A stretch of 64,000 nt of DNA from Lyophyllum atratum (taxonomy: Eukaryota; Basidiomycota; Agaricomycetes; Agaricales; Lyophyllaceae): positions 372,001 through 436,000 of the forward strand of contig JACGCN010000028.1 in assembly GCA_014905825.1 (NCBI GenBank), read 5' to 3'. The number at the start of each line of letters is the position of its first letter. The stretch's first letter is position 1. The translations under genes and the position numbers were made by a program. The notes under the pieces were generated by a model, which was not told the origin of the DNA, did no database searches, and was given only the letters and a program-made list of their open reading frames with translations. Shown piece after piece: positions 3,897 to 55,315 of this stretch.

Positions 3897-3952
3897 AACA
3901 ACGTTCGTCATTCCACCGGCTACAACACAGTCACAGACATACATCGACTACC
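3897..3952 (-). other. Conserved 3' element of peptide copy 1
   Basis: Read on the minus strand this contains GATGTATGTCTGTGACTG followed by a TAGCCGGTGGAATGAC block. It lies about 100 nt past the stop codon of copy 1 and recurs after the other six copies. Confidence 0.7.
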
Positions 3953-4055
3953 AAACATCTGAACCGCTACCAGTTAGATCTGACAAGAAAGAATTAAGTG
4001 AGGATACAAGGTAGTAGTGGTGAGTGTACTCACGACGTTGATCAGGCGCCATCGT

Positions 4056-4359
4056 CTACTTGCAGGTTCCGCCCATGCAGATCTGTCCCAAGCCTGCGAA
4101 GGATGAATTTAACATGGGACGTCAATGAGAGGAAATACATAAACTTACAGTCCCTGGTAGTCCTGCAAGCGCGCCTCGCATTGAGGGTCTCGGGCTCGAA
4201 ATCCCTGCGGTAGACGTCCCACTCAGCCGCATGGCGTGCGACGAGGTTGTTGCGCGTGAGCTGCGCGATGTCACGGCCTGCAAGAGTGGGCTCAGCCACG
4301 GCGGTCCAGCTGGCGAGGACGACGGGGAGGGTGAAAAGGATGGCAGAAGAGAATTTCAT
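4056..4359 (-). CDS. Secreted cysteine-peptide precursor, copy 1
   Basis: Exons 4149-4359 and 4056-4093, intron 55 nt (GTAAGT...CAG), 82 residues. Residues 1-22 form a signal peptide (MKFSSAILFTLPVVLASW, then TAVA). A propeptide of about 40 residues ends at NARR, a dibasic site suited to Kex2. The predicted mature peptide is ACRTTRDCLGQICMGGTCK, with four Cys in the spacing x5, x4, x4. The intron splits the codon of the second Cys, so the last 12 residues come from the 38-nt second exon. The leader is nearly identical to copies 2 and 3, but the core differs at many non-Cys positions. Function unknown; it is not a hydrophobin (eight Cys) and has no CaaX pheromone tail. Confidence 0.85.
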
Positions 4360-4389
4360 GGTGATAGTTGGGTGGTTGTGTGTTGTAAA

Positions 4390-4435
4390 GAGACCGGCTC
4401 TGAGGAATCCATGAGTTGTAGAGGGGGTTTATATA
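4390..4435 (-). promoter_or_regulatory. Core promoter and 5' motif of peptide copy 1
   Basis: TATATAAA reads on the minus strand at 4428-4435, 76 nt before the ATG at 4359. Between it and the ATG lies CAGAGCCGGTCTCT (4390-4405), shared with all seven family members. Confidence 0.7.
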
Positions 4436-4439
4436 CCTT

Positions 4440-5978
4440 TTCGCTTAGATCGGTGTTGGCGGTGACGCTGACATGTCACAGAATGGGGTGGAGTCTTGGA
4501 GAACGGCGAAGCGCACTCAACTCACCGTGACGCCCGACGGTTGAGCTGCAGGCCGAGCCTCCCTTGCGCCCTGTATCAGCCTATATCGTTCCCCTAATGC
4601 AGACAGTGGCAGATAGCGAAATATTACAGGTCCCTGATCAGCGATACAATCCATCAGACGGCCCCTATATCTCATCGGATCCATAACCACGGTATAGATC
4701 TCCGGCATGAACAGATGTTGAGTTCTTTTTGGAAGTAATAGGAGCCAAGCTGCCAATCGCAGAGACTGAGAGGGCCGAGAGGGGCTGGGCTCAAAGCTTC
4801 TGGGAAGACCGAATCAAATTACATCAAAACATAAGAGAAACACAGTGTGGAATGTCCGGCAAGAATGGATGGTCCAGCGACGCCATCGAGTTGGCAGCGG
4901 GGGTTTCCTAGCTTCGAGCGTCAAACGAGGGAAGGACGGTCAGCGTAGCCTAGGAATGCTGCAGTCCAACTGGAAAAAACATTCAGGCGAAGAAGCAATC
5001 TGCAACGTCGCGGGTTGGTGTTATGAGAACCCGAGGCAGACAAAATGTACACTGACCTGTCTGACCACATACGCCAAGATGGACCATGAGGTCGCGGGTT
5101 ATATATCAACCATCGAATAGAGAAAACTTGTTTAGCGAAGGCTTAAGCGGACTCAGATGAGACGTGCATGTTTCATGAATGTTTGTAGGAGGTGGTGTTC
5201 CGCACCATGAGTCCACGACAGGAAGAGGCGAGATCCACTGGCAGGCGCCAAGGCTCTTTACCAGTACGTCGTTTTGCGCCTGTAAGTATCTCGTCTGCAG
5301 AAGTGAGCAATGCAACTTCAAGCGACTGTGGCCGAGACTTCATAGTATGATTCATCGTCACTTCATACTAGCATGCAACTAGGATGACTCGGATGCACAT
5401 GACGATTGGAGAAGCGCCACAGATTTAGCCGGAGATCGCAACGGTGATCTGTCTCCGTCCCACTCGGGCTTCACTGGCAAATGCAATTTGTTGACCGCGA
5501 CCACGATAGCATCTGTATCATAGGGTATGCCCTACATGACCAGCTTTGCGCCGCCTCGATGCGCAGCACCTTAACACAAAGCTATACCCGGGACCGATCC
5601 GAGTCATACCATCTTTTACTCAGACCTCGAACATGACAGCGTTTCGTGACGCCAAACGGTATGGTTCAGCCATCCTCCCAACTGAGATAATCCAATTCGG
5701 CTGGTGTAGCTGGGATTCTCCGGATTCTAGATGTCGATTCTCCGGATTCTAGATGTCATCCTTGAGGACGTTGGTTGTTCTCGTCAGCATCACCTGCTCC
5801 CCGATCAACCGTGTCTTCGACAACGGCTTCGAGAGCCAAGTTCGTAATTCTCCTTCCCACTTACTTGTAATCTGTACTATCATCCTCATGCTATAGCGTC
5901 CATTCATGATTTACGATCAATTTCTATTAGTGTGTTTGAATCGAAAAGTCGTGGAACTTAAGTAAAGCGAAACAATTG
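4440..5978. other. Long intergenic stretch, one 22-bp direct repeat
   Basis: No gene could be supported. A minus-strand open frame of 79 codons at 4517-4756 has no recognised domain. A perfect tandem duplication of a 22-bp unit beginning GATTCTCCGG occupies 5714-5757. Confidence 0.4.
5714..5757. repeat. Two tandem copies of a 22-bp unit
   Basis: The unit starts GATTCTCCGGATTCTAG and is repeated exactly, 5714-5735 and 5736-5757. It looks like a replication-slippage product with no coding context. Confidence 0.8.
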
Positions 5979-6036
5979 CGCAACACAACTCTTGTCATTC
6001 CACCGGTTACAAGTCACAGACATACACCGACTACTA
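5979..6036 (-). other. Conserved 3' element of peptide copy 2
   Basis: The minus strand reads CGGTGTATGTCTGTGACTTG then AACCGGTGGAATGACAAG. It is the copy-2 version of the downstream element, one base shorter in the middle than copies 6 and 7. Confidence 0.7.
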
Positions 6037-6158
6037 AAAACCATGCATCTACGGTCTGTGCCACTACCAGCGAATACTAGTGAAGAAATGGTCAACTCTC
6101 CATGCTGGAATGATCAACGGCGGATACACTACTCACGAGGTTGATCAAGCGTCGTCCT

Positions 6159-6465
6159 CTACTTGCAGATCCCTTTGATGCAGATCATTCCCAAGCCTGC
6201 GCAGGACATATTTAACATGGATAGCCAATAAAACAAATTCAAAAGAAAACTCACAATCCTTGGAAGTCACGCAAGTACGCCTAGCGCTGAGAGTCTCAGG
6301 CTCGAAATCCCTGCGGTAGACGTCCCACTCAGCCGCATGGCGTGCGACGAGGTTGTTGCGCGTGAGCTGCGCGATGTCACGGCCTGCAACAGTGGGCTCA
6401 GCCACGGCGGTCCAGCTGGCGAGGACGACGGGAAGGGTGAAAAGGATGGCAGAAGAGAATTTCAT
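6159..6465 (-). CDS. Secreted cysteine-peptide precursor, copy 2
   Basis: Exons 6255-6465 and 6159-6196, 58-nt intron (GTGAGT...CAG), 82 residues. The leader and propeptide differ from copy 1 by only a few residues (EPTVAGRD for EPTLAGRD, LSARR for LNARR). The predicted mature peptide is TCVTSKDCLGMICIKGICK. An upstream in-frame ATG at 6657 would add 64 residues ahead of the signal peptide; I reject it because it would bury the signal sequence and lies upstream of the TATA box. Confidence 0.85.
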
Positions 6466-6494
6466 GGTGATAGTTAGGTGGGTTTGTGTTGTGA

Positions 6495-6543
6495 TGAGAC
6501 CGGCTCTGGGGAAATCCAAGAGCTGCACCGGGGGGTTTTTATA
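6495..6543 (-). promoter_or_regulatory. Core promoter and 5' motif of peptide copy 2
   Basis: TATAAAAA at 6536-6543 (minus), 78 nt before the ATG. The CAGAGCCGGTCTC block follows and is slightly shortened (CTCATC instead of CTCTTC). Confidence 0.7.
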
Positions 6544-7019
6544 CTTTTTTTCGCTCAAGGGACGCGAGGGGACGCGGTCACGACACCGCGTGGTTGAGGT
6601 TGATGGGGGACCGGGATGCATCATGCCGACATGCGAGCATGTGGTCATCTGTGTCACTTGGTTCGCTAGCGGATTTGCGTTTGGTGATCATGGCTGATCC
6701 TGGCTGATCTTGGAGGGTTCTAATTTCGCGTGTGATGGAAAATGTCGCTATGTTGAGTTGCTATCTCGGTTCCTCTAAATTCTGCTAGCTCACCATGCTT
6801 GCTCCATAAAATGGGGTCCATGAGCCGCGATGGGGAAGTGCTCGCCCATGCATAATCTTAAATCACGGCCCGCAAAACAAGTACCAGCAGTCCCAGAGTC
6901 ACGCGAACACATCCATGAAACGTACGAGCAACGTACGAGGTCAAGGAGAAAGCTCATGGATCAGCGTTCGGAAAGCATGCGGATATTGCAATGCAATGCT
7001 TGAAACACCAAATGCCTGA

Positions 7020-7180
7020 CGCAGCGAACCACCAGGTTACAGCATAGCACATCGGGTACCAGCCCTGACAAACACGTACACGGTATACGCAGCAGCGAAG
7101 GCAGCCAGACTACGCAGCCTTCTACGCGGAAGCAGGGCGATAAGTTTGACAAGATTTCCTATCGAGAGTTCGACACTTAC
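7020..7180 (-). pseudogene. Aldo-keto reductase C-terminal tail, isolated fragment
   Basis: The minus strand encodes a stretch resembling RLRSLAAFAAAYTVYVFVRAG. This matches the unusual hydrophobic tail of the aldo-keto reductases at 53.9-57.1 kb and of the broken copy at 7.4-8.5 kb. No other exon of this copy is present, so it is probably left from a tandem duplication of the 3' end. Identification rests on similarity to neighbours inside this window. Confidence 0.5.
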
Positions 7181-7429
7181 CAGTTGCAGACTGACGTCGG
7201 AGGCACACAGACGGTCATCAAGAGGGAAGATGGAATTGCAAGAAGTTATTCGTAATCTGATCTCAGAGTCGCAAAGTCCGATGTTCAGACGAAAATGCGA
7301 ATATATGGAAGCTTAAGGGTGCAAGTAGAGACCAGTCGCACAGAGCATGAATTACACCTAATGCCGACCGCAAACCAAGGGTCAGGGCATAGCATATTCG
7401 CCTCGCATACTAACCTTAACAAACGTGTA

Positions 7430-8500
7430 CATAGCATACGCTCCCGCGAAGGCCGCCATGCAACGAAGAGTATTCCGCGAGAGACTCAACCCGAAAGGCA
7501 CGTCAATAGTTGCGAGTTCGTCCTTTGTTAAATGGCGCTAGATAAGAAAAAGAACCTTCTTTCAGCCATGGCAGCTAACGAGGCACGGATGCGGAAGACA
7601 CATACGAAAATCGGCGTCGGTAAGATACTCCGCGAGCCATTCCTGCTTTGAGCTTGTCCTGTAAGGTAAGGCATGAATGAAAAGGAAGACGAACAGTAGA
7701 TAAGTGCTACTGACGTCACAATTACTTAGACCATGCGAGGACAACATGTGCCGGTGTTATGTCGAGATGTTTAGCTGCAGCTTTGATTGGGGCGTCCACA
7801 GGTCCACCAGGGAGCTTGGTTATCGGGCTACTTTGCAAAATACGGTGAAGGTAAGTATACAGAAGGACATACGTGACGCTTCTGTAGCCTTCGTTGAGAA
7901 TGCCATGTTTTCCGAATATTCGAGGAGAGACTTGCTTTGGGCATCGTCGTAAGGGTGGAATTCGATCTACACACATAGCTGGCTATCAGAGACGTGATGC
8001 GCGACGGAAGTTTACACAGACCTGGTTGACGGAGAGTCGGATCTCCACGGTCTTCATGACGGCCTGGAGCTGTTCGAATTGAAGATGCTCACGTCGATAT
8101 TCCTAAGGCAAGAACCACGCGTTAATGGTGCTAACAGTGGCAAAAACACTTGATGTACCTCGCCAGGCCATCTTCCTTGATCTTCTCGGACTCCTTCCAA
8201 GCACCTTCGAGATTATCCTCGACCAGACTGGGCATGTAAATGAGGGTATGCGGTCGACATATTCAAGACCGAGCTACGCTCGATTTTTGTGTCAATCATG
8301 ACTTCGGATCAGTCACTCGGTAGGATGTACCTTGGCTATGACAATGTCTCGGGAGCTATGGTATTCGGTGACTGAGCCTTAGTTGAACGCTATCGCAGGT
8401 ATTCACAGGCACTGACAGTTAAGTTCAACTCCTTCGAAAGAAGACACAGAAGGCGACTGACCTGCTTTTGATCTTTCATCTTCACGTTTCCGAAGGGTAT
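7430..8500 (-). pseudogene. Aldo-keto reductase pseudogene (tail-bearing type)
   Basis: Recognisable exon remnants occur in the order of the intact genes at 53.9 and 55.7 kb. Exon 1 reads IPFGNVKMKDQKQ near 8460-8500, with ATA where the intact copies have ATG. Exon 2 has IPAIAFN, then a stop, then a SRDIVIAK segment. Exon 4 has LVEDNLEGAWKESEKIKEDG. The next exon contains EQLQAVMKTVEI but needs a frameshift. Then come PITKLPGGPVDAPIKAAAKH, TSSKQEWLAEYLTDAD and the tail exon LTKDELATIDV with AAFAGAYAMYTFVKVS. The sequence after HVVLAWSK runs into a stop. Start loss, a nonsense codon and frameshifts make it clearly dead. Confidence 0.85.
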
Positions 8501-9329
8501 GGTACCTGGCTGCACAGTGGCAGTCTACTGGTCTTAGTTGGTGACGAGGTTGACGAAGGGCAGAGAACAGGCTGGAGCACCATGATATGCGTCATGGAAG
8601 GCCCAACTCACCTCTGTCGGTCATCGCCAAGATAAGGGAGCTCTTCATTGGTTGATGTATTTCCCACGTTCTCTTCTCTCAACCAGTCTCAACCTCTTGA
8701 CATGAAGATGTCCAGAACGCCGAACAGGTCATAATTCGAGTGCAAGCTAGGATGCAGTTCAAGTCAATCGCTCACTATTCTGAAGTCACAAGCGAGGGTC
8801 GTCTGCCCTTCAAACTCGACAGCAATGTCAGGAAACGTAATACGGTCTGCGGAAGATAATTACCTACCGTGGTGCACGCCGCCCCGCGGAGTCGCCAGCC
8901 TCGGGTCCTCTAGGCAACGCAAGGCTTGGCTCCGTCTACTAGGAATGAATTAAACTGCTTCCACTGCAGCTACTTCGATCGCGTACCAGGATTATAAAGG
9001 AGCTTTACTCTCGCAGGGGTCGCCTTCTGGGATTCGGGGTGTGTTTCTCAGTATGGCATGATAGGTTATGACGTTTGACTGAGTTGCATCTTGCGAACCT
9101 TTCTTGTAGGACAGCGAATAAGGCTCGATCGCCAGCTTATGATATGGACTCGAGCATTCAATTAGACCGTCCGAAAGCCCATCAGGGACTGAGGTCTTGT
9201 CCCAGCTGTGACTTTCGTAGCAAACAGTGAGACGGCGGAGCCTCGGGAAGCAGACCATGATCTCTACTTACACGAGGAGACACCCGTTAGGCGCTGCTGC
9301 CATCTCGGGGAGGTACTAAGTAATTCAAA
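8501..9329. other. Intergenic, no gene seen
   Basis: A minus-strand open frame at 8992-9258 has no recognisable domain. Nothing else is supported. Confidence 0.4.
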
Positions 9330-9860
9330 TTGATGATGCCTTCGCGACATGAAGGCGGGGTTCGTGACTTACCACATCTAACCTTCTTACCATCCCATTT
9401 CGCGCTAGATATCCCAGATATCTATAGAGCGCTAACTGCATTCCGTGTCCTACACATTGCAATAATCCGACATTTGTCCACGACGCATCGAAATATTCTG
9501 CGAAATCATTTTCAAGTTCAAAGACGCAGGGATCTGGTTCCTCGCATTCCTCCACCACGGCTACGAAATTCGAAGCTGTTGAGAACCAATCTCTGGGATG
9601 GTCTCCTCGAAAACTGATAGACCGTGAACCAAGACTTAGATAGAACTAGCCGTGCCTTGGACCTACTTCGCGAGCCTCGTACGGTCACTTGGGTGCCGTG
9701 TCAATTCTTACTCTCCACACTACGTTCATGGCCAATCAGGCTTTCCGATACTATTCTGGGCAAGATGCGCACCACGGCGAGCTCGCGCCTTCGATGGGTG
9801 ACGGTCAGTCATGCCTATTTGGAACACTATATGTAGTAGGTCTGCCGCCTACACGTCTGA
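9330..9860 (+). repeat. Upstream region of copy 3, also found between copies 6 and 7
   Basis: Blocks here match, in inverted orientation, the sequence at about 34,850-35,380. Examples are GATGCGCACCACGGCGAGCT (9765-9784) and the GGCGGCAGACCTAC block (complement, near 9840). The same order and distance to the peptide gene are kept, so the duplication that produced copies 3 and 6 carried several hundred bp of upstream DNA. Confidence 0.65.
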
Positions 9861-9999
9861 TCTGGTTCTATTTTGGGAGGAACCGCAAATCTGCAGCAGT
9901 CATGGGTCGCAAACCTGCATGATCATGCAGGACTCGTCCATCTTCCAATAAATTCGGATTGAAATCCATGATCCGACAACCCAAGCCGCGTCGGAGGGG

Positions 10000-10050
10000 T
10001 ATAAAAGACCTACTGTGAAACTGTGAATTCCCCAGAGCCGGTCTCTTCAC
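10000..10050 (+). promoter_or_regulatory. Core promoter and 5' motif of peptide copy 3
   Basis: TATAAAA at 10000-10006, 75 nt before the ATG. CAGAGCCGGTCTCTTCAC follows at 10033-10050. Confidence 0.75.
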
Positions 10051-10074
10051 AACACAAACCACCCAACTAGCACT

Positions 10075-10378
10075 ATGAAATCCTCTTCTGCCATCCTTTT
10101 CACCCTTCCCGTCGTCCTCGCCAGCTGGACCGCCGTGGCTGAACCCACTGTTGCAGGCCGTGACATCGCGCAGCTCACGCGCAACAACCTCGTCGCGCGT
10201 CATGCGGCTGAGTGGGACGTCTACCGCAGGGATTTCGAGCCTGAGACCCTCAGCGCCAGACGTGTTTGCGTGAGGGCCGAGGATTGTGAGCTTTCCTTCT
10301 AATTTGTCTTATTATCTCTCGATGTTGAATCTGTCCTGCACAGGCGCGGGAGAGCTCTGCATCAGAGGGCGGTGCTAG
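10075..10378 (+). CDS. Secreted cysteine-peptide precursor, copy 3 (divergent core)
   Basis: Exons 10075-10285 and 10344-10378, 58-nt intron, 81 residues. Apart from MKSSS for MKFSS, the leader and propeptide are almost those of copy 2 up to LSARR. The predicted mature peptide is VCVRAEDCAGELCIRGRC. It keeps the Cys spacing but replaces the usual LGMI with AGEL, has acidic and Arg substitutions, and ends directly at the last Cys. Core substitutions alongside a conserved leader suggest diversifying selection on the peptide, or relaxed constraint; only population data can tell. Confidence 0.8.
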
Positions 10379-10490
10379 TAGAGGAGTGAGTAATTGTTAT
10401 CTATCGATTTCGATTTTTTCATCGACTCAGTCTTTCTCCGGACAGACATCGCTGGTAGTAGGCCCATACCGCGGGAGAATCCATACTTAG

Positions 10491-10560
10491 TTGTCGGTGT
10501 AGTCTATGACTGCATCGTAACTGGTGGAATGACAATCGTTGTGTTACCGCATCTTCGAGA
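10491..10560 (+). other. Conserved 3' element of peptide copy 3
   Basis: TTGTCGGTGTAGTCTATGAC, then CGTAACTGGTGGAATGACAA. This version is degraded in the first block (AGTCTATG for ATGTCTGTG). Confidence 0.6.
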
Positions 10561-11362
10561 TAATCTGAGAAGTGTACCCCCGGTCCCGTTACCCATTAGA
10601 ACTGAGAGTGCAAGTGATCACCTTGAGGCTTGCGTTAAAGATCACCATGAGGGCAGAAGATGGACTTCCCAGATTTCATTCGCCGCGTCAGCAACCTAAT
10701 ATTATTGCTTTTGATATTTATCCTCCTCCTGCCACTTTGATCGTGAAATCCGTTTCGCGTTCATACATATCCATCTTGGTTCTTCAGAATTAGCCATCGC
10801 CATCCTTGCGCCATGTCCGCTATCGTTCTACTTGAAGGCCTGAGAGGAACTCTACGCAAGCAACGGTCTTACCCATCCTCGGCAGGACCATGCATGAACC
10901 CGACTCCGAACCGCGACAGAGCCTCAATCTACTCGCATCAAGACACAACAGGGAACTGTTGGACTCTTCATTCCCTTCATGCTCAGGCACGATGATCATC
11001 CCTATCCTAGCGTTAACGTGGACTCAGGTTTGGAGACCATTCGACCTTCTTTCGCGCGGTGATCATCAGTAGCAGGGGTTTCAGTTGCACCATGGTCGAC
11101 AAGGTGTAATCTATGTATGAGCCTAGAGAATCGTCGCCTCATTCGGACAGACTGAAAGTCTACATAGGTGCGTCGTCCAGGCGATGCGGCCCTTGAGCAT
11201 CAGCTTCTCAACTACCGGAAACTTCAATTCCGAGTCTACCACGCCGTCATTCGTAGTATTATCAAGAGATCACTTCAGTCGCCGTAACAGGTCGTAACTC
11301 GTATCGCTGTTTCAGTTCCCAATTCGTTCGGCGCTCCAACGCCGAGGCCTAGGCGATCCCAG
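10561..11362. other. Intergenic between peptide copies 3 and 4
   Basis: No coding feature supported. Confidence 0.4.
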
Positions 11363-11410
11363 TATAAAACCCCAGCAACAGCATCGATAATTCCTCAGAG
11401 CCGGTCTCTT
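11363..11410 (+). promoter_or_regulatory. Core promoter and 5' motif of peptide copy 4
   Basis: TATAAAA at 11363-11369, 73 nt before the ATG. CAGAGCCGGTCTCTT spans 11396-11410. Confidence 0.75.
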
Positions 11411-11435
11411 CACGCAACACAAACCAAATATCATC

Positions 11436-11717
11436 ATGAAATTCTCTTCTGCCCTCCTCATCGTCCTCCCCGTCATCCTAACCAGCTGGACCGTCGCGGC
11501 CTACCCCCACCAGGCTGAATCCTCAGTCGAGGCCCGGGAGTTCGACGAATGGGAGTACCTGAACGTCCGCGATTACGATGCGCTCAATGCGAGACGGGCT
11601 TGTGAGTCTTACGGCATTGACTTTTATGCGTTCTCAATTGCTCATGGTGATGCTCTTATAGGCAAGACGTCGAAGGACTGTCTTGGTATGATCTGTATCA
11701 ACGGTGTATGCCAATAG
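11436..11717 (+). CDS. Secreted cysteine-peptide precursor, copy 4 (shifted intron)
   Basis: Exons 11436-11601 and 11662-11717 give 73 residues. The signal peptide is family-like (MKFSSALLIVLPVILTSWTV) but the propeptide is unrelated in detail (YPHQAESSVEAREFDEWEY). The mature peptide after NARR is ACKTSKDCLGMICINGVCQ, identical to copy 5. The intron (60 nt, GTGAGT...TAG) interrupts the first Cys codon rather than the second, 18 nt earlier than in the other copies. Because it is 60 nt long and stop-free, the unspliced message is also open and would insert 20 residues within the peptide. Confidence 0.8.
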   Translation: MKFSSALLIVLPVILTSWTVAAYPHQAESSVEAREFDEWEYLNVRDYDALNARRACESYGIDFYAFSIAHGDALIGKTSKDCLGMICINGVCQ

Positions 11718-11841
11718 AGGACTTTCGTCGCGAGTTCCCCCTTCGAAAGTGGTGAGTCCGTGTTACGATTTATGTGTCGGTTTTGGCTCAATGGTAATGT
11801 GCAGGTGCATTATGATTCTGATGGAGAGAGTCGGTGATGGT

Positions 11842-11905
11842 AGTCGGTGTATGTCTGTGACTGCTTGTAACCGGTGCACTGCCAATATGATTTGTTGCGA
11901 GAAAT
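11842..11905 (+). other. Conserved 3' element of peptide copy 4
   Basis: AGTCGGTGTATGTCTGTGAC followed by TGTAACCGGTG. It sits after a probable 3'-UTR intron (GTGAGT at 11752 to GCAG near 11805). Confidence 0.65.
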
Positions 11906-12809
11906 GTTCGAGATCGATGCGAGTATCTCCTGTGCTGCTAGAGTGAAGTACGTATAAGCCTGGGTTAAGAAATCTTCGCCGCCTGCGATAGGATCAGTGA
12001 TAATGGTATGCGTCGTGCCTGTAGCGCACTCGTCCAATTTGATGCCTGGGGTACTGGGGTTAGCCACTGTTAGCCAACAAACAATATTTGATTCCGTCGG
12101 CTGTCCACCGATAGGGTAATCTATTTTAGGTTCAGGCACAGCCGGAGGTGACGCGTCCTATTGAGTGTTGCGTCCCGGCCTACCGACCGCCAGCGCCCTC
12201 CGCCGCCCATCTTGTACTTACCTTCATAAACCCAATCGTAAGTAAATCTCCTAGTCATGGTATGGGCTCTGAACAACCATTTTCTATGATATGAGCAGCT
12301 GGTTTATTTCGTTAGACTTGCAGCCTAGTGGAGCACACAGATAAGGCAGAAAGGAGGTGACGACGGCGGGCTGTCATGACCGAGGAAGCTCGACATGTAC
12401 AAACCCGTCGTCAGGCCTCTAATCTCTATCTTGACCCTGAATATCGCCAATGGGTGGTGTCCTCCCATATGGGCTCCCCAGAAATCACCTCTGAACTGCT
12501 ATGGTTATCGGATTTATCTTCATAGGCTCTACGGTGCACGGTGGCACTGGCAGCGTCGCCTCGTGACTGCCGTCGGGTCGTCGAGGCTCGTTCATCCCAC
12601 GCACTGCAAATCAAAGGTTGCATGATCACAGCCCTCAGGCCCAGGGGCCATAAGGGATGTATGTGGTCATGGAGACCCAGCAGTTGCTACGCATCAATTT
12701 TCAAGGAAGCTCGATGTGCGCATATCCACGATCACAGAACTGAAACGCGCCCACATGACACCAACGCGGCACAGCCCACACGCGAGACGCATTACACATC
12801 CACAAGCCC
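11906..12809. other. Intergenic between peptide copies 4 and 5
   Basis: A minus-strand open frame at 11810-12139 overlaps the copy-4 3' element and has protein-like composition but no recognised domain. It is treated as unsupported. Confidence 0.35.
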
Positions 12810-12859
12810 TATAAAGCCCCTACAGCGAAGGGCACGAATCCCCAGAGCCGGTCTCTTCA
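12810..12859 (+). promoter_or_regulatory. Core promoter and 5' motif of peptide copy 5
   Basis: TATAAA at 12810-12815, 77 nt before the ATG, then CAGAGCCGGTCTCTTCAA at 12843-12860. Confidence 0.75.
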
Positions 12860-12886
12860 AGCAACACAAACCACCCACGATCCATC

Positions 12887-13163
12887 ATGAAATTCTCCGC
12901 TGCCATTCTCCTCGTCTTCCCCGTCGTCCTCACCAGCTGGACCGCCATGGCGAGACCCCAACGCCTCCAGGCGCGCGAGTTCGACGACGTCGAAGCTGTG
13001 TCGGCAAGGGACTTCGAGCCGGAAACCCTCAATGCGAGACGCGCTTGTAAGACTTCTAAGGATTGTGAGTTTCCTTATTACCATTGCTCAGGATGCTTCT
13101 CGGGGTTGACGGTGGCGACGTGTAGGTCTTGGAATGATCTGTATCAATGGCGTTTGCCAGTGA
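12887..13163 (+). CDS. Secreted cysteine-peptide precursor, copy 5
   Basis: Exons 12887-13064 and 13126-13163, 61-nt intron (GTGAGT...TAG), 71 residues. The signal peptide is MKFSAAILLVFPVVLTSWTA. The short propeptide (RPQRLQAREFDDVEAVSARD) differs from both other leader types but rejoins the common DFEPETLNARR before the core. The mature peptide ACKTSKDCLGMICINGVCQ equals that of copy 4 at the protein level, although codons differ (TCTAAGGAT against TCGAAGGAC). Confidence 0.85.
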
Positions 13164-13280
13164 ACGACTTCGGGAAACACTTTTTATCGAAAATCGTGAG
13201 TATTTTTCTCCGTAGACGCGTTTGAGGTCGAGCTTACAAGCGCTTTGCTAGGTGCATACTGATGGGGGGAGAATTGGCGG

Positions 13281-13336
13281 CGGTAGTGTGTTTGTCTGTG
13301 ACGATAGCCGGCCCGATGTCAATCAGATTTGTTGCT
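13281..13336 (+). other. Conserved 3' element of peptide copy 5
   Basis: GTAGTGTGTTTGTCTGTGAC then a diverged AGCCGGCCCGATGTCAATCA. This is the most degenerate of the seven. A probable 3'-UTR intron (GTGAGT at 13196 to GCTAG near 13251) precedes it. Confidence 0.5.
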
Positions 13337-13389
13337 CCCGTATCGCGTCTTGCGCTTGCGTTCCACGAGTGTGGTGTCAGAGCAACTTC

Positions 13390-27600: not shown

Positions 27601-28416
27601 GAAGGCCTCGCTTTTCCGATGATGATGATGAAGGTAAAGAACGGTTGATTGTTAGGTTGTGAGCATGAACTGTGATGATGGTTAGAAGCAGAGACAGTCA
27701 GAAGGGTTCGGCAACTTACTTCGCCGGCTGATTAAATAGATGCTGCGGGAGCTACGGGCCACTTCAAGGCCACTTATGCTCACAGGCCAACAAGGATTCA
27801 GGAATAAGTACAAGGCGTTTCGACTTTCTATAATCAGGGTAGTCGCGTCCCTCAGTGCGGCGCTTGTCATCTGATACATCATACCGAAGAAAAAGTGCAT
27901 CTATCAAACATTCTCGTGTCGCGCTATGGCTTGAGGAGGAGACTTCAGAAATTGCATGAGTAGGCATTTTGTGGCCAGTTGCATCCAAGTTTCGGTAAAT
28001 CGGTAACAGAAGGATCAAGGGGCCAGGAGAACTGGAGCACAAATAGTCCCTTCATCGCAATCGTAGCGCATATCGAATGTTCATGAGTCCGCAGACCTTG
28101 GAGAGGTCAACACGGTGTCACAGAGTCCTTCAGACTAGAATGCTATGCTAAAACTGAGTCCCGCTGAACCGCCTCCTCCAAAAGTGTTCGCGTACTACTC
28201 ACCAATTTCAGACGCCATCTTTCCGGTCCAGAAAAGTGTAAAGCATTAAAATTCCACACCGAGCATTACAGACAGTGACACAACACGACAGGATATAAGA
28301 ACTTCAAGACACGTACACGCGAACAAAGCATAAGAGAATTACAAAACGATCCACATGGCACGAAAAGCACAAAGACAATGCACAAGCAAGCAAGTAGCAA
28401 GAACAGGCAGCATCAC
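27601..28416. other. Intergenic, no gene seen
   Basis: A minus-strand open frame at 27682-27900 has no recognised domain. Confidence 0.4.
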
Positions 28417-29067
28417 CTACCCAACACCCGCCCCAAGCACAAACAACACCCATCCACAGCCTCCTGAATGGAAAAGGGAAGAGAACGATCAACCACACAC
28501 CACTGACAACACCTCATCACCCCCAGTAAACACCACACCACACTGCGCCAACCAAGCATCACCGCGTACCACCACGCATACCATCGAAGCGGCGACCGGA
28601 AAAACAACTCACCTCATCCACATCCAAAAGCTCCACCAATTCTCCTCTCACGCCCCTCTATCCAACACCCGCCCCAACCACGCCCAACACCCCTCCATCG
28701 CCTCCTGCATAGAAAAAGGGGCAAAAAAACGATCAACCACACACCCCAGACAACACCCCCTCCCCCCAGACCACACTCCTCCCCCCCAAAACCACCACAC
28801 ACCACCACGCAGCAAACCAAAAAAAACAACTCACCTCATCCACATCCAAAAGCTCCACCAATTCTCCTCTCACGCCCCTCTATCCAACACCCGCCCCAAC
28901 CACAACCAACACCCCTCCATAGCCTCCTAAACAAAAAGAGGGGGAAGAAAAAACGATCAACCACACACCCCAGACAACACACTCCCCCCCCCCCCCCCCC
29001 CCCCCCAAACCACCACACCACATCACACCACACACCACCACGCAGCAACCAAGAAAAACAACTCACC
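28417..29067 (-). repeat. Tandem intron/exon modules at the 3' end of the cyclin gene
   Basis: The end of the penultimate exon (GATGTGGATGAG with donor GTGAGT), a T/G-rich intron and the last exon recur in tandem. Donors lie at 29066, near 28834 and near 28612, a period of about 222-232 bp. Last-exon copies lie at 28870-28926, 28648-28704 and, diverged, 28417-28463. Each exon copy keeps a splice acceptor, starts GAGGC and ends in a stop: two read EAMEGCW and end VLDRGA,and the third ends VLGR. The first copy downstream of the donor is the default terminal exon. Confidence 0.75.
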
Positions 29068-31824
29068 TCATCCACATCCAAAAACTCCCCCAACTCCCTC
29101 CTCACCCCCCGGACCGCCCTTACCGCTCTCTTCCCTACACCCGGCTTCCGAGTCGTAGTGGTGCCGGAACAGAGCTCGTAGAGGTACCACGGCGCTGCGT
29201 CCTCGTAGCGTCTCTGCAGCACCACACATGCGCCGTGTAGGAGCGCGGCGGCGGTTAGGAGCGAGAGGGGGAAGCGCAGGACGTCGGGTTCTCCATGAGA
29301 GTTCGTGTCAGCGTTAGCATAGCTGAGCGCGCATAACCCTCGGACACCACTTCGTCCCGCATATACCGCAAACGTGCCCACCGCATGCACCTCCAGTGCC
29401 TTTGACGTAACGTGGAAGGAAAAGACAAGTTATACAGAAGAGGACGAGAGAGGGACGACAAAGCCATTGGTATCGCTCACCTCTCACAGCCGCGAACAAC
29501 ACCCGCCAAGTCTCCCTCTGTACACAATTCCATCCAGGCTCCAACTCTTGGTCGTGGTCGCAGTCGCCTTCTCGGTCTCCGTCTCTGCCAAAGAGCCGCC
29601 GCAGTCCCGGAAGCGCCTCCCAGAGCTCCAGAAGCAGAGCCTGGGGCGTGTCCCCAAGGCGCCACTTGAGCGCGGACAGGACATCACGATGCGCGATCTA
29701 TGTAGCGGGACTTGGTCAGCACGAGGGGGAAGTTGACAGTCGGTGAAGAGAACCCGTACCTCAAGATCCTCGAACCCAATGACCCCATGCGGCGCGAGGC
29801 GCTGGAATTCGTACGCGTACACCGGGAAGAGCGGGTGCAGAAAGTCGCGGTGGTACTGCACAGGAATGCGACATCAGGTCTCGTCCACAGGAAAGGGAGA
29901 AGAAACTCACTTTGACACTTATAGCTAAACACGCAACGGCAATATCCCACGTAACCAGCACCTTCCCCTCCTCGTCCAGCTCCGGTCGAAACACCAGCTT
30001 GCCCGCGTCCTCATCCTCGCCTTCCTCCGCATCCCGATCCCTATGAGAGCGGCCAACAGCATGGAAGAACCGCAAAAAGAGGTACGCGGCATGAAAGCGC
30101 GTCACTGGGGACGTTGCGAGTTGGTCGTGCAGGTTCGAGGGGTATCTTGGTCTCGGTGTCGAGTTGTTGTTAGCGGTACTGGGGAATGTCGAAGAGAAAG
30201 CTGAGGACGAGGAGGACGAAGAGGGGGAGGGCGAGAAGAACCGGATGCGTGGGGTTGGGGTGGTGCCTCTTGTGGTGTATGAGGATGCCGTAGCTGTAGA
30301 TGATGAGGTGGTCGAGCAAGAGCGTGGGCTGTTACTGCCACTGCTGCTCGAGCATGACGGCGTCCCTGCGGAGTACCCACACCTCACATCCTCGTTGTCA
30401 TCGTCGCTATCTCCACTCTCAGAGCCGTCCACACTAACATGCGAATAGTAGTCCCCGGAACAACTAGGTCCCATGGGTGCCGGCGGCGTAACCTGAGCAG
30501 ACACCAGCCCACAAATTAGTACAAGGCCCACCATGCAAACAAACAACGGGAGCTTACCTCCAAAAACCACCTCATGACACACCCTCTCAGCTTTTCAGCA
30601 ATTGCATCCCCATCCCAATCCCCAGCTCCTCCACCCTCCGCCCCAAGCTGCGTAGTGAGCCCCATGTCCACACGCAACCCCGCCTCACGCTCCAACAAGC
30701 GCTTGATACGAATATACACCGGCGCCTCAGTCGTAGGCGGCGGGAGGGGCAGGGGCGGGGCGATGATCGGGACAGGCCCTAGTCCGAGCCAGAGCCCAGG
30801 TTTCGTACGACTCAACGTCGTCTTGACATTGGTATTGTGTCGCTGTTCGGGCGTGGCGGGAACAGTTGGGATGTCGTTCTGTAGGCAAAGCGAGCATTAG
30901 CTAGAGCAAGTGGATATATGCGTGTATATGTACCTCTCTCTCGCCCTCGCCCTCGTTATTATCCGGGATAGACCGCAAAGACGCAGCCCGTCGTAAACTA
31001 GCAGGCGTACGAGCGAGCTCCGTGCGGATGCGGGTGCGTGTCGATGTGCGTGTGAGGATCTTGGGCCGTTTGCGTGGGGGTTGTGAGTCCGTATCTGTGT
31101 CCGTGATATAGGGATGGTTCGAATTTCCCTTGAATGGAGGGGAGAACGTGGCGTCCATGTGTTTCTGTCTCGGACGGTAGGAGACAGCACGATGGATGAT
31201 TCGATATTTATGACCCGGTGGTGCCGAGCGGGGTTGGGCGCTGCTTTGAAGCAAGTCTGATGCGGGGGAGGCGAAGACGAGAGTGGATAGGTCTGATTCG
31301 ATAGAGTTCTTGGGAAGAACACGAGCGTGAATTGTTGGAGCTCGTGCATGACGCAACGGGTTCCTAGTTTCGCGTGTGTTCAGAGGCATGGGGCGATGTG
31401 GACTCAAGCCGGGCGTGTTCAAGCCTGCGAGGGTATCTGAAATACGCATATTATTGTCACCGTTCTAGTAGGAGAATTTCGAGCATTTACCGTAGTCCGT
31501 TCTCGCGACATGGACATCATGTGGGCCGCCGTTGTTATCGTAAGACATGCCTCCGTCACCATTCCCGTCGTCACCTTTCAGCTGACCCTTAAGCTCGTCG
31601 GACTGACGCTCGCGCATTACAACCACCAAGAGATCATGGAGACGACGCGTAAACTCGTCCTCTGCCCCCGCAGAGTCGGTCTGCATATCGGTACTCGTGC
31701 TAGCGGTAGTGGCACACCCATCTGAGCCGTCAGACCATGTTGAATTATTGGATAGGGGTGAGCTGCTTGATAGCATGAAGTCAGGAGGGCTGCTGGACAA
31801 CGGCGGCGGGCTTGAGCTCGCCAT
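28870..31824 (-). CDS. Cyclin-domain protein
   Basis: Proposed exons: 31491-31824, 30934-31436, 30558-30878, 30492-29911, 29760-29855, 29481-29697, 29067-29290 and 28870-28926, giving 777 residues. The N-terminal half is Ser/Pro-rich and low complexity with basic patches (RPRKQKHMD, PPRKRPKILTRT). The cyclin fold begins near residue 500 (SPVTRFHAAYLFLRFFHAVG), continues VTWDIAVACLAISVKYHRDF and YEFQRLAPHGVIGFEDLE, and ends with EPDVLRFPLSLLTAAALLHG. Cyclins activate cyclin-dependent kinases. The 190-nt intron 29291-29480 is longer than its neighbours and its acceptor was chosen because it alone restores the frame. The 3' end lies in the tandem module array. Confidence 0.75.
28984..29006. repeat. 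Run of 23 C
   Basis: A homopolymer inside the last intron of the cyclin gene (a G-tract on the transcribed strand). It could form G-quadruplex structure in the pre-mRNA, and its length is error-prone in sequencing. Confidence 0.9.
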
Positions 31825-31927
31825 TGGAGGCGAGTGTATGCGCTCTGTGGATGTGATCGTGACCGTGGTGGAATGAGAGAAGGGCTCGGCAACTCAAACA
31901 AATGACATGTTCCTCCAACTCCAGTCA

Positions 31928-32491
31928 CTATGTTGAACGATTGCTTTCAAAATCAATGTTGCAGTCTGAGTTGATATCGACAGTACGCCTGCGCGGCGCG
32001 TCGTAGGGATAGTCGCTTGGAGAGACACCTGGTAACTTGGCCCTCGCATGTACAAAGACTCCAGACGCCCGTACCAAATTTGCTCCCCTGCCAACTAACT
32101 TACTGGACTCCTCATCGACTTCCTCTACCAGATGGGTCCTACCTCCCCCCGCCCTCGTGTTCGACGAAGATGCTGTGATTTGAATGCTCTGCGCCAGATC
32201 TCTGCAAACTCTTGGCTGCAGCGTGGATGTCGCTCTGGACGTGTCGATGGTGCGTCCTTTTCTCAAGTTCATTCTACCACAATGTGAAAGTGGGTAGTCA
32301 CAGTTATCTCTGTCCAGGTCATCGTAACGCCAAATCGGGACGGCCTCTCCGCCCGGCGCCACGGCTCTCGTTCGAGATTGCGATATCATGACGCCTGTCA
32401 TTTGTATGACGAGCGCCTTCAAGCCGAAGACATCATGAACTACTATGTGTTGTAGTACGCCTTCGCTTTTTCTTGCTCTGAATGATACCAA
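31928..32491 (-). CDS. Uncharacterised open frame of 187 codons
   Basis: An uninterrupted minus-strand frame upstream of the cyclin gene with no recognised domain, signal peptide or membrane segment. It could be part of the cyclin 5'-UTR or chance. Confidence 0.2.
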   Translation of the reverse strand: MVSFRARKSEGVLQHIVVHDVFGLKALVIQMTGVMISQSRTRAVAPGGEAVPIWRYDDLDRDNCDYPLSHCGRMNLRKGRTIDTSRATSTLQPRVCRDLAQSIQITASSSNTRAGGGRTHLVEEVDEESSKLVGRGANLVRASGVFVHARAKLPGVSPSDYPYDAPRRRTVDINSDCNIDFESNRST

Positions 32492-32868
32492 TCTTTAGGC
32501 AATATTCGGTTCGTACGTTGCGTATATCTCGTCATGCGACCTACCTTCCTACTGACCAGAGTGACAGCATGAATGCGACCATGATCCATGTCATCATGTC
32601 CACTAACTTGTTCTGCCTTCTATTCTCCATCTATCGAACACTCCTGCTTCTACATCGTGATTCGGCCCGCTGCGTATTGCTTCTAACATGCCCCAGCCTC
32701 TCTAGCTTTCCATCACGTATCGGCCCACACCCATATTACGCCTAGAGTCTGGCGCTTTCCTTTCTTCTAGTTCTCTGGGAGGCTGCTAATTCTGACAGCT
32801 CGCAGGCAACAACATTCTATTTTAGCTTGGTTCTTGTCCTAGCCCATCTTCGGACCACGATATTCTGC

Positions 32869-32874
32869 TATAAA
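32869..32874 (+). promoter_or_regulatory. TATA box of the small secreted-peptide gene
   Basis: TATAAA 79 nt before the ATG at 32948, the same spacing as in the cysteine-peptide family. Confidence 0.55.
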
Positions 32875-32947
32875 GCTGGCACGTCGTGATGATCTAGCAG
32901 TAGCGAGACGACTCTCGATCGACATCGTCGCATCAACATCCCTCAAC

Positions 32948-33376
32948 ATGAAGCTTGCCCTTACCTTCGTTATAGCGACTATCGCCCATATCTCACTCGC
33001 CCTGCCTCTTTCGGCATCAATCCAGGCTAGATCCCCAGCCCCAGCCAAAGTACGTTGATCTATGTTACCCCAGACTCGTCAGGTATCTAAAAATTCTCCA
33101 AGGACATACTACTCCCAGGACTCGACACGTACGTTCCGCAGTGACATGTTTCGTTAGGCGTTAGAGACTGAAGCTACTTGTTATGATAACTGAAGATTGG
33201 GAAGTCTCTTAGACGCGCTGTATGGCACGATACAGGTCAGAGACCTGCCCAAGCGGGATAGTGCCGCCGAGTCCCTCCTAGGCCTAGGCATACCGGGCCT
33301 CGAGAACTTGCAGTACGGGCTTGTTTTCTTGATTCTAGTTCTAGGTACTGATCATGCCTACCCTGGTATTTCATAG
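32948..33376 (+). CDS. Small secreted-peptide precursor candidate
   Basis: Exon 1 (32948-33049) encodes MKLALTFVIATIAHISLALP, a signal peptide, then LSASIQARSPAPAK, and meets a GTACGT donor. Splicing to CAG at 33235 opens 33236-33376: VRDLPKRDSAAESLLGLGI and onward to a stop, 80 residues in total, with a KR site after PK. The 186-nt intron is long for this genome and may hide a further exon. The architecture (signal peptide, spacer, dibasic site, short tail) parallels the gene at 26.3 kb. No family recognised. Confidence 0.45.
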
Positions 33377-33928
33377 ATTGGAAGACTTGTTGGCCTTGCT
33401 TGATTTACGTCAGGAGCACGAATGGAACTAGATAAGCAACGCGGGATGCATGAGAGTTTAACGACTCGGAAGTTGTTACTACTATTCGAACACACACTCG
33501 GTCGTACAAACCCTGTGTGCACAACCGCCGCAGTACTTATCGATACGTTTCTACTACCCTTTATTATGTCCATGCCTCCTACACTGTTCCGCCGACGCTG
33601 ATGTCGTATCAGCTGCCATCTAACAGTGTCTTTTTTTAAGTTCCAGTTCTTCGCACTTTCAAACTGCATAAAGTGGAACAAGTGTTATGCCATGAAATTA
33701 TATAAGGCCTCTAGCTGTCGTATCTTGGATAGCATTGTTATCACGAAGAAGGCAGATCTCACACACAGGTGGTACAATACAGGTGGGGAAGAAATGGTTG
33801 CCAGGTGTGAGACGATCTGAAAGAAGCGGTGGCCAAACCGTCACCATTCCATCTCTGTTCGTTGCCCGTCGATGGATGGTGCGGTCCGAAGTCCACAGGT
33901 TCGAAGGAGTGCTCTTCCAGACAGAATG
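33377..33928. other. Intergenic, no gene seen
   Basis: No supported feature up to the left arm of the inverted repeat. Confidence 0.4.
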
Positions 33929-33993
33929 TGTAGGAGAGAAAGGAATACTGCACGCCGATTATTCATGGGGACGACCACTCAAGTCACGCAGAT

Positions 33994-34058
33994 ATTGCAA
34001 CAACACAACTCTTGTCATATTCCACCAGTACCAACGCAGTCACAGACATACACCGACT
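33994..34058 (-). other. Conserved 3' element of peptide copy 6
   Basis: The minus strand reads CGGTGTATGTCTGTGACTGC then GTTGGTACTGGTGGAATATG. It is nearly identical to the copy 7 version. Confidence 0.75.
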
Positions 34059-34168
34059 ATCAAACATCCATTCTGTACCACTACCAGGGACACCTGAGGG
34101 CGCTTCAGCTGAGTACGCCAATGGCGTCAAAAGTCTACTCACGACTTTCCGTCAATAAGCATTATCGT

Positions 34169-34472
34169 TCACTGACAGGTGCCGCTGACGCAGATCATGC
34201 CAAGACCTAACAAGAGGAGTCAACGTCGAGAACATAGCGAGATCAACCCATATCTACTCACAGTCACTGGAGGTCTTGCACGACCGTCGCGCATTGAGGG
34301 TCTCGGGCTCAAAGTCCCTGCGATAGACATCCCACTCCGCCGCATGGCGCGCTACAAGGTTGTTGCGCGTGAGCTGGGCGAGGTCACGGCCTGCAACAGT
34401 AGGTTGGGCCACGGAGGTCCAGCTGGCGAGGACGACGGGGAGAGTGAAAAGGATGGCGGAGGAGAATTTCAT
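34169..34472 (-). CDS. Secreted cysteine-peptide precursor, copy 6
   Basis: Exons 34262-34472 and 34169-34206, 55-nt intron (GTGAGT...TAG), 82 residues. The leader is very close to copy 1, with TSVAQPTVAGRDL. The mature peptide after NARR is SCKTSSDCLGMICVSGTCQ, identical to copy 7. An antisense 148-codon frame covers the same DNA but simply mirrors this gene. Confidence 0.87.
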
Positions 34473-34499
34473 GGTGATAGTTGGGTGGGTTTGTGTTGT

Positions 34500-34549
34500 G
34501 ATGAGACCGGCTCTGGGGAATTCTGGGTCTCAAAGCGAGCTCTCTTATA
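34500..34549 (-). promoter_or_regulatory. Core promoter and 5' motif of peptide copy 6
   Basis: TATAAG (minus, 34544-34549), 77 nt before the ATG; copy 7 has TATAAAA at the same place. CCAGAGCCGGTCTCATC follows. Confidence 0.65.
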
Positions 34550-35816
34550 CGTCTCCGACAGCTCAGCCAACTCCTCCCGTGCACGGCGACATGTCACCTT
34601 GTATTGCTACCGCTGCAGCGCGTGAGACTTTTGGTCTGAGGAGTTAAGGCGTCGCACTTGGGTCCTGATGGAAGATGGGAGAGAAGGCTTCAGGATCATA
34701 GCCCTGCAGGAGCGCCGAGTCGCCCGAGTCGCCTTTGACCATTGTGAAGGTCATGGGTCGCACAAGAATGTTCAACACAAGTTCAACACGGTCAGCGATA
34801 TCCCTTGAGGAGTGACTCAGGGTATTATAGATGTAAGCTAGATGAGAGTATAGGCGGCAGACCTACGCCCCGTCGTGGTCCAAGCAGGCATGGCTAAGTA
34901 TCACCCATTCAAGGCGTGAGCTCGCCGTGGTGCGCATCTTGCCAAAAATCCGGAATAGCATCAAAGAACCCGTTGTGAGATGATGGATGAACTCCGAGAT
35001 ACGAGTGGGAACAGCACCGGAGTGACCATACTAGGCTCGCGAAGCACAAGGCACGGCGAGTTACTATCAAGTCGGGGTAGTCGGGGTCTAGCAAGTTTCA
35101 CCCCAGAGATCGGCTTTCGACCTCTCTCAACTGAAAGTTTCGTGCAGTGGTGGAGGAGTTTGGATGGAATTCGAGGAATCAGATACCAGCGACAATCGAT
35201 GGGGTTGATGATTGATGTGGACTCGGAAATGATTTCATTACTCCGACGCGTCGATTAACCAATGTTGGATTATGGCAACGTGTAGTACACTGTGCGCAGC
35301 TAGATTTATCTGGCGCGGATGGAGTGATAAAGAGATTATGGCAAGTCACAAACCTCATGCCATGAAAGCATCATCAATTGGATTATTCAAGGATTATTTT
35401 GATGACGGTCAACATGCCAAGAATAGCACACCGTGAGGGTACCCCTGACGGATATAGGCTATAGCACGCCTGCTATGCCGTATGTACTGGGTGTCGCGAC
35501 TCGCAAGGAATCTACCGCCTATCCTCTCATCTGGTTTATGTCGGTAATACTCTGAATCACCCTTCGAAGGATATAGTGGCCGTGGTGAACACTCTTGTGC
35601 GACTTATGACCGTCACAATGGTCAAAGGCGACTCGGGCGACTCGGCGCTCCTGCAGGGCTATGATCCTGAAGCCTCCTCTCCCATCTTCCATCAGGACCC
35701 AAGTGCGACGCCTTAACTCCTGAGACCAAACGTCTCACGCGCTGCAGCGGTAGCAATACAAGGTGACATATCGCCGTGCACGGGAAGAGTGGCTGAGGGT
35801 GTCCCTGCCAGAGACG

Positions 35817-35867
35817 TATAAAAGGGCTTGGTTTGAGACCAGGAATTCCCCAGAGCCGGCCTCTTCA
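35817..35867 (+). promoter_or_regulatory. Core promoter and 5' motif of peptide copy 7
   Basis: TATAAAA at 35817-35823, 77 nt before the ATG. The motif is CAGAGCCGGCCTCTTC here (C for T), starting at 35851. Confidence 0.75.
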
Positions 35868-35893
35868 CAACACAAACCCACCCAACTATCACC

Positions 35894-36197
35894 ATGAAAT
35901 TCTCTTCTGCCATCCTTTTCACCCTCCCCGTCGTCCTCGCCAGCTGGACCGCCGCGGCTCAACCCACTGTTACAGGCCGCGACCTCGCCCAGCTCACGCG
36001 CAACAACCTCGTCGCGCGCCATGCGGCGGAGTGGGATGTCTATCGCAGGGACTTTGAGCCCGAGACCCTCAATGCCCGACGGTCGTGCAAGACCTCCAGT
36101 GACTGTGAGTAGATATCGGCTGAGCTCACTACGTTCTCGACATTGACTGCTCTTTTTAGGTCTTGGCATGATCTGCGTCAGCGGCACCTGTCAGTAA
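35894..36197 (+). CDS. Secreted cysteine-peptide precursor, copy 7
   Basis: Exons 35894-36104 and 36160-36197, 55-nt intron, 82 residues. The leader has TAAAQPTVTGRDL; the core SCKTSSDCLGMICVSGTCQ equals copy 6. It ends TAA where copy 6 has TGA. It is the inverted-repeat partner of copy 6; the few differences between the arms suggest recent duplication or gene conversion. Confidence 0.87.
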
Positions 36198-36308
36198 ACG
36201 ATAATGCTTATTGACGGAAAGTCGTGAGTAAATACTTGTCGCCATTAGTGTACTCAGCTGAAGCTCCCTCAGGTGTTCCCGGTAGTAGTACAGAATGGAT
36301 GTTTGATA

Positions 36309-36371
36309 GTCGGTGTATGTCTGTGACTGCGTTGGTACTGGTGGAATATGACAAGAGTTGTGTTGTTGCAA
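36309..36371 (+). other. Conserved 3' element of peptide copy 7
   Basis: GTCGGTGTATGTCTGTGACT then a GGTACTGGTGGAATATGACA block, followed by AGAGTTGTGTTGTTGCAATA. Confidence 0.75.
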
Positions 36372-36437
36372 TATTTGCGTGACTTGAGTGGTCTTCCCCA
36401 TGAATAATCGGCGTGCAGTATTCCTTCCTCTCCTAAA

Positions 36438-53917: not shown

Positions 53918-55315
<1,398 letters not shown>

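Follow-up and report, generated by a model that had tools for sequence, protein, structure and literature searches.

A dispersed family of four-cysteine peptide precursors in Lyophyllum atratum, with constant cores and drifting propeptides

A stretch of 64,000 nucleotides from the agaric Lyophyllum atratum (assembly GCA_014905825.1, contig JACGCN010000028.1, positions 372,001 to 436,000 of the forward strand; 'the window' below) carries seven short genes for putative secreted precursors, each ending in a four-cysteine peptide, the 'core'. They belong to a larger family, in which the propeptides vary but a core type stays the same from allele to presumed allele and from locus to locus, a pattern that speaks for a small number of fixed ligands rather than for diversification in an arms race. 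The reading proposed here, from sequence comparison and with middling confidence, is that a dispersed multigene family supplies a few endogenous secreted peptide ligands, released by kexin, each of which would act on a fixed partner.

Gene models in the window

Searches covered the whole assembly, 64.8 megabases in 151 contigs, of which the window's contig is labelled C73. The seven gene models are complete and lie where a preliminary description of this DNA had proposed copies with signal peptide, propeptide, Arg-Arg and core, between 4.1 and 35.9 kilobases (kb). Each has one GT-AG intron of 55-61 nucleotides (nt).

Copy A: 4056..4359, minus strand; exon 1 4359..4149, exon 2 4093..4056; core ACRTTRDCLGQICMGGTCK
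Copy B: 6159..6465, minus strand; exon 1 6465..6255, exon 2 6196..6159; core TCVTSKDCLGMICIKGICK
Copy C: 10075..10378, plus strand; exon 1 10075..10285, exon 2 10344..10378; core VCVRAEDCAGELCIRGRC
Copy D: 11436..11717, plus strand; exon 1 11436..11601, exon 2 11662..11717; core ACKTSKDCLGMICINGVCQ
Copy E: 12887..13163, plus strand; exon 1 12887..13064, exon 2 13126..13163; core ACKTSKDCLGMICINGVCQ, the same as in D
Copy F: 34169..34472, minus strand; exon 1 34472..34262, exon 2 34206..34169; core SCKTSSDCLGMICVSGTCQ
Copy G: 35894..36197, plus strand; exon 1 35894..36104, exon 2 36160..36197; core SCKTSSDCLGMICVSGTCQ, the same as in F

All seven precursors start MK-(F/S)-S and continue in the same order: a hydrophobic stretch, a propeptide, Arg-Arg and a terminal peptide of 18-19 residues. 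The spacing C-x5-C-x4-C-x4-C is found in every copy, once intron removal has completed the core, and with D matching E and F matching G there are five distinct cores; spacing, length and number agree with the earlier description. The 82-residue precursor of that description is the upper size of a range of 71-82, and the propeptides of D and E, with overall identities to copy A of 54% and 63%, are clearly different. With copy A as the query, tblastn in the window found B, C, F and G at expectation values (E) of 1e-42 to 1e-39, copy E at 4e-17 and copy D at 4e-16, values by which a chance origin of the matches is excluded. The intron splits the codon of the first cysteine in copy D and that of the second in the other six, yet D and E yield the identical 19-mer.

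The cores terminate in CK, CQ or C. An Asp precedes the second cysteine, a Gly stands two positions past it, and most types have another Gly in the last loop. Net charge is 0 to +2; the commonest core is neutral.

The family in the genome and its presumed haplotypes

One precursor, used as a query against its own assembly, found 39 matching places, and weak or atypical copies came to light in further searches; after joining places that belong to one gene, and setting aside a remnant of copy C, the family comprises 39 loci. The duplication and clustering described earlier do hold in the window, whose seven copies are, however, a subset of this dispersed family. Thirty of the 39 loci were modelled as intact, and these carry eight core types (6, 6, 1, 4, 8, 2, 2 and 1 copies). 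With two disulfides the released peptides would have monoisotopic masses of 1917.740, 1981.855, 1999.829, 2010.943, 2011.852, 2027.836 and 2038.877, and that of copy C 1947.854. The other nine were left out of all counts of intact models, as relics with stops, fragments or atypical copies:

C92: a frame-broken copy
C13, C46 and C35:61 kb: relics
C78: a fragment
C2 and C119: on each, a second broken copy behind the gene at locus J
C2:1727101 and C119:1715846: an atypical copy

The atypical member (MKFFSSLLLALPVVLSTWTAMAYYEDHD..., L070:3101-3601 and L071:3846-4346), similar on C2 and C119, has a normal exon 2 and an ambiguous exon near the first and second cysteines; read by eye, it may have introns near both the D-type and the E-type sites. 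A degenerate pattern made for exon 2 and allowed up to two mismatches matched 30 places in the genome, 29 of them family loci, against none for the reversed pattern; the thirtieth, on C97, is probably a chance match.

The window's contig and contig C35 share gene order and are 91.5% identical in DNA across 3.8 kb, which suggests that both nuclear haplotypes are present in the assembly. Other contigs were paired by similarity and orientation only, and 'allelic' means presumed allelic throughout. Head-to-head pairs of copies occur at three loci: C80/C75, C1/C65 and, in the window, F and G. The partners of the C80/C75 pair are nearly identical, suggesting exchange within the pair.

Core conservation and propeptide drift

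The propeptides vary from one locus to the next, and often between presumed alleles as well; the cores do not. The core protein is identical in all 14 presumed allelic pairs. Summed over these pairs, the cores show no nonsynonymous difference at 636 sites and nine synonymous differences at 162, against 22.5 nonsynonymous differences at 2209 sites and 59.5 synonymous at 725 in the signal peptide and propeptide ('prepro') part; the excess of replacements in the prepro is modest (Fisher p = 0.008, on rounded nonsynonymous sites and counts). Comparison of loci is sharper: the cores of D and E differ by nine synonymous and no nonsynonymous changes (p = 6e-9), and their prepro parts by about 29 nonsynonymous ones. 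The core of F and G, of the SCKTSSDC type, recurs in eight copies, no two of which share a prepro protein, and is encoded by six versions of the core DNA. Purifying selection has frozen the core in the three types that vary synonymously, and presumably in the rest as well.

Conotoxins are the model of focal core diversification. That pattern is unsupported here between alleles and within types; comparisons of copies A, B and C with one another remain compatible with it.

Several observations weigh against a system of fixed ligands. A single pair, K2, contributes 10.5 of the 22.5 prepro replacements, and the nine synonymous core changes come from just four pairs (D, G, K1 and K2). Synonymous variation is present in only three of the eight core types, at 2, 9 and 7 codon columns. 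In the ACRTTRDC type, six copies with five prepro proteins share one core DNA sequence, which recent copying could explain as well as selection. Between the cores of A and B, A and C, and B and C, the nonsynonymous difference equals or exceeds the synonymous one, and past positive selection between core types is compatible with these differences. Freezing within one dikaryon is compatible with any peptide whose target is conserved, an antifungal peptide among them. Copy C may be decaying, or else young and divergent: all that is left of its counterpart on C35 is a piece of exon 2 that reads CIKGRCK and then a stop (window 9753-10402 against L074:3759-3819), and in the window copy a stop stands in place of the last Lys codon. 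Finally, no receptor candidate is linked to the family; the STE3-type receptor genes are on other contigs.

A different perspective supposes that the cores are secreted peptides of defence or competition, directed at microbes or animals and freed by kexin from an inert propeptide. They are small, cysteine-rich, multi-copy and clustered, and mushrooms offer a precedent: cylindracin/PRI3 of Cyclocybe is an antifungal protein made as a secreted precursor with a short, probably inert propeptide and a cysteine-rich C-terminal part, although its domain has 59 residues and eight cysteines against 18-19 and four (PMC11532979). The low net charge and the neutrality of the commonest core do not fit easily, and an arms race would be expected to alter the cores, which in fact do not differ between presumed alleles and are conserved across loci; nor was a defensin family found for the four precursors run against Pfam or in searches of the PDB with cores. 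Low charge and the lack of allelic change would count against a membrane-lytic or arms-race role, while a defence peptide with a conserved target would still be compatible. A defensive role is on the doubtful side.

The cores might instead serve as effectors towards a plant or animal partner, for instance as mimics of cysteine-rich peptides of the host. Some Kex2-processed secreted proteins of basidiomycetes are important in plant colonisation (MiSSP8, Rep1/Hum3 and Rsp3, cited in PMC7329392), and the second match in the PDB to a profile of the cores is the N-terminal part of plant kiwellin, where a C-x5-DC-x5-C-x4-C stretch of the kissper region is aligned. That match, at E = 6 and to a six-cysteine domain of a larger plant protein (PMC9813671, in part), is not significant and not evidence of kinship, and cores that are the same in the two presumed haplotypes give no hint of diversification driven by a host. 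An effector role appears unlikely.

Gene conversion in the prepro region

What keeps the prepro alike within the window while it drifts elsewhere? Copy A is informative here. Compared with copy B and with I1, a copy on contig C80, it offers 145 informative sites: between +10 and +165 from the ATG it is B-like at 29 of 30, and outside that interval it is I1-like at 111 of 115. The B-like tract itself covers roughly +10 to +153. The contrast is strong (Fisher p = 4e-25, for an interval picked after a sliding-window view), and a run score that does not depend on the chosen interval was reached in none of 10 000 shuffles. The counterpart of copy A on C35 is equally mosaic (28 of 29 sites inside, 116 of 120 outside). 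Homology between A and I1 reaches some 840 bases upstream, in two pieces. The best reading of copy A is an I-type gene in which the version of the cluster has overwritten the prepro, with a tract that would end just before the core.

The resemblance of copies B and C, too, is highest in the prepro, 96% against 74-84% elsewhere. Gene conversion therefore seems to account in part for the constant prepro of the window, directly in copy A and presumably as a general process; selection may remove conversions that reach into the core. The contrast of a constant prepro with a variable core, as first described, holds within the cluster and partly through conversion; across loci it is reversed, since there the propeptides drift and the cores stay.

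Secretion, processing and promoter

The residues at -3 and -1 of the signal peptidase site satisfy a loose rule in all 30 intact copies, and peak hydropathy over 12 residues is 1.76-2.80; with this hydrophobic N-terminus the copies present the endoplasmic reticulum signal peptide asked of KEX2-processed repeat proteins (KEPs). Arg-Arg stands immediately before the core in all 30 models, as the model search itself required, and DFEPETLxARR directly ahead of it in 26. These features are consistent with the secretion and Kex2-type processing first proposed. Cleavage at Arg-Arg and formation of disulfides are predicted from them. P-proprotein domains occur in kexins, though not exclusively there; the genome has two neighbouring matches each at C1:542205-546164 and C105:185956-189163, about 3-4 kb apart.

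A TATA element lies at -72 to -78 in 29 of the 30 intact copies, followed downstream by a GAGCCGG element about 40 nt ahead of the ATG. Copy G may serve as the example:

35817..35893, plus strand: core promoter and 5' untranslated region (UTR) of copy G, with TATA at -77 and GAGCCGG about 40 nt ahead of the ATG

A 22-base element of the 5' UTR, allowed up to three mismatches, occurs genome-wide at 28 places, all of them immediately ahead of family loci (control, none); it misses some family loci too divergent for that limit. Since the element is found only upstream of family loci, the family appears to move together with its own promoter.

These data bear on the idea that the family is a decaying set of duplicates with no current function. 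Nine of the 39 loci were not modelled as intact, and copy C is largely deleted on C35. Set against this are a core under purifying selection, intact splice sites and conserved promoters, and we regard simple decay as very improbable.

Repeat-bearing relatives and likeness to known systems

Two loci extend the usual anatomy. In locus M, on both contigs, a Pro-rich segment that ends GTGRRKHRR stands twice ahead of a normal core; locus N, intact on one contig, carries twice a longer unit that includes SPSPNPGPR and SSSVPPPG segments, again ahead of a normal core. Repeats between basic sites are found in only these two among the 30 intact models and in none of the seven window copies. Through M and N, single-core precursors and Kex2-processed repeat precursors fit together as one linked set.

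The family shares with KEPs the signal peptide, the kexin-type basic sites and a product size inside the 9-24 residue class, the most abundant in Dikarya according to one survey (PMC6339444). It differs in that the window copies have one core and no repeats, so missing the repeat criterion of another survey (PMC7329392, in part), and in its four cysteines. A four-cysteine core of this kind is not described in the available parts of three KEP surveys (PMC9769878, PMC6339444 and PMC7329392); the terms cysteine and disulfide are absent from the main texts of the first and third, and the second has cysteine four times, its available passages dealing with alpha-type pheromones that have two cysteines. 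Those ascomycete pheromones likewise come from secretory precursors as short kexin-released peptides, some with two cysteines (PMC6339444, in part); the window copies differ in being single-core, in having four cysteines and in lacking XA/XP repeats behind the basic site.

M and N also raise the thought that the functional product is the propeptide or its repeats, the cysteine core being a carrier or folding aid. The repeated Pro-rich segments between basic sites, and the DFEPETLxARR motif so widely kept ahead of the core, would suit it. Propeptides vary between loci and often between alleles where cores do not, and repeats are confined to two loci; we consider a propeptide product quite improbable.

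As to the fold, the Asp/Gly pattern of the core recalls the two-disulfide heart of knottins and the disulfide-directed hairpin; if this is right, the first cysteine would pair with the third and the second with the fourth. The spacing resembles that of cysteines II, III, V and VI of squash inhibitors. The last loop, of four residues, is shorter than in the disulfide-directed beta-hairpin consensus. Peptides of that class, among them arachnid toxins and the sea-star peptide KASH2, have four cysteines paired as predicted here (PMC11891777, in part), but no sequence match to the family core. Min-23, the cystine-stabilised beta-sheet miniprotein, is a knottin core with two disulfides that is able to fold by itself (PMC6259850, in part); it is designed and has 23 residues, whereas the present cores are natural and have 18-19, with 17 from first to last cysteine.

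Rejected identities and the neighbourhood

No Pfam family exceeded its cut-off for the four of seven window precursors tested (the best scores, for the EB module and Dickkopf_N, were 15.2 against 24.3 and 14.5 against 25 bits), and no NCBIfam family did so for the three tested, in keeping with the opinion that this is no named family. The best PDB matches had E = 0.93 with one core, which is not evidence of kinship with scorpion toxins, and 2.5 with a profile built from the eight core types. The literature searched contained none of six family sequence strings, and topical searches found nothing matching the family; subscription papers and supplements lay outside their scope. No Rfam element reached its gathering score in the window. 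A shared origin with prokaryotic or viral genes was rejected as well: the patterns matched 37 and 23 stretches, none encoding a relative.

Mating pheromones of the CaaX kind have a C-terminal CaaX box and no signal peptide, and STE3 receptors are typical of basidiomycete mating loci. The family does not belong there: it has a signal peptide, lacks the CaaX terminus and is not linked to STE3, whose 41 matches fall on C61, C96, C24, C74 and C108, none a contig with a family copy. Several STE3-type genes are clustered on C61, C96 and C24, probably marking the pheromone-receptor mating locus; such a plurality of STE3 genes is compatible with a basidiomycete. A search for STE2 gave no match in the assembly, and its control was equally silent.

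Nor are these precursors of dikaritin type, among the ribosomally synthesised and post-translationally modified peptides: no UstYa (DUF3328) gene lies near a family copy. The 13 UstYa matches are on C94, C68/C130 and C1/C65, none on C73 or C35, and on contigs shared with family copies they are more than 100 kb away. The window itself was scanned with Pfam for 111 of its 168 open reading frames (ORFs) of at least 95 residues, 20 ORFs being rescanned singly. No UstYa and no obvious partner gene appeared among those 111; at an E of 0.001 or less, and in some cases under the curated cut-off, matches were to DIM1, cyclophilin, SLATT_fungal, GMC oxidoreductase, aldo/keto reductase, an epimerase type and PIP5K. 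An 84-residue ORF near 7.8 kb (window 7722-7976) looks by eye like a fragment of an aldo/keto reductase; the C35 stretch that matches its region (L074:1843-1939) is 75% like window 54676-54772, within the aldo/keto reductase match (54587-55081).

A proposed course of events

Endogenous ligands remain the reading we prefer, on the strength of uniform anatomy in 30 models, purifying selection on the core and the mosaic of copy A. The steps might run as follows: signal peptidase would cut after a site of the Ala-x-Ala type near residue 22; kexin would cut after Arg-Arg; the released peptide would fold as a small two-disulfide hairpin, most likely with the first cysteine bonded to the third and the second to the fourth; it would then act outside the cell on a fixed partner, most plausibly as a signal that passes among hyphae or tissues within the fungus itself. 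The core types, about seven to eight, would each be a separate conserved ligand, a status for which the frozen cores of three types speak directly. Multiple copies and TATA promoters would supply dose, and gene conversion, as in copy A, would homogenise the prepro among clustered copies and leave the core types distinct. The expectation of signals or defence peptides, drawn at first from duplication in clusters, processing of the Kex2 type and core variation, is thereby narrowed: fixed signals are favoured by inference, arms-race diversification is not.

A fuller version, which we put forward only tentatively and consider rather doubtful as a whole, is a basidiomycete system resembling hormones: fixed ligands, seven to eight in number, built on a minimal two-disulfide hairpin of natural origin, predicted to be smaller than the designed Min-21 and Min-23 units; conversion overwriting the prepro of clustered genes while each ligand type is kept intact by selection; and single-core and KEP precursors in one family.

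Implications

To our knowledge, few secreted peptide signals are known in basidiomycetes besides the lipidated mating pheromones. The family offers concrete candidate ligands: about eight types of released peptide, unchanged between presumed alleles, at many loci. Direct tests of disulfide-bonded peptide hormones in basidiomycetes become possible with them. The presence of single-peptide and repeat precursors in one family shows how precursors of the repeat type can arise. For peptide families in general there is a caution: a constant leader with a variable core need not imply fast evolution of the core.

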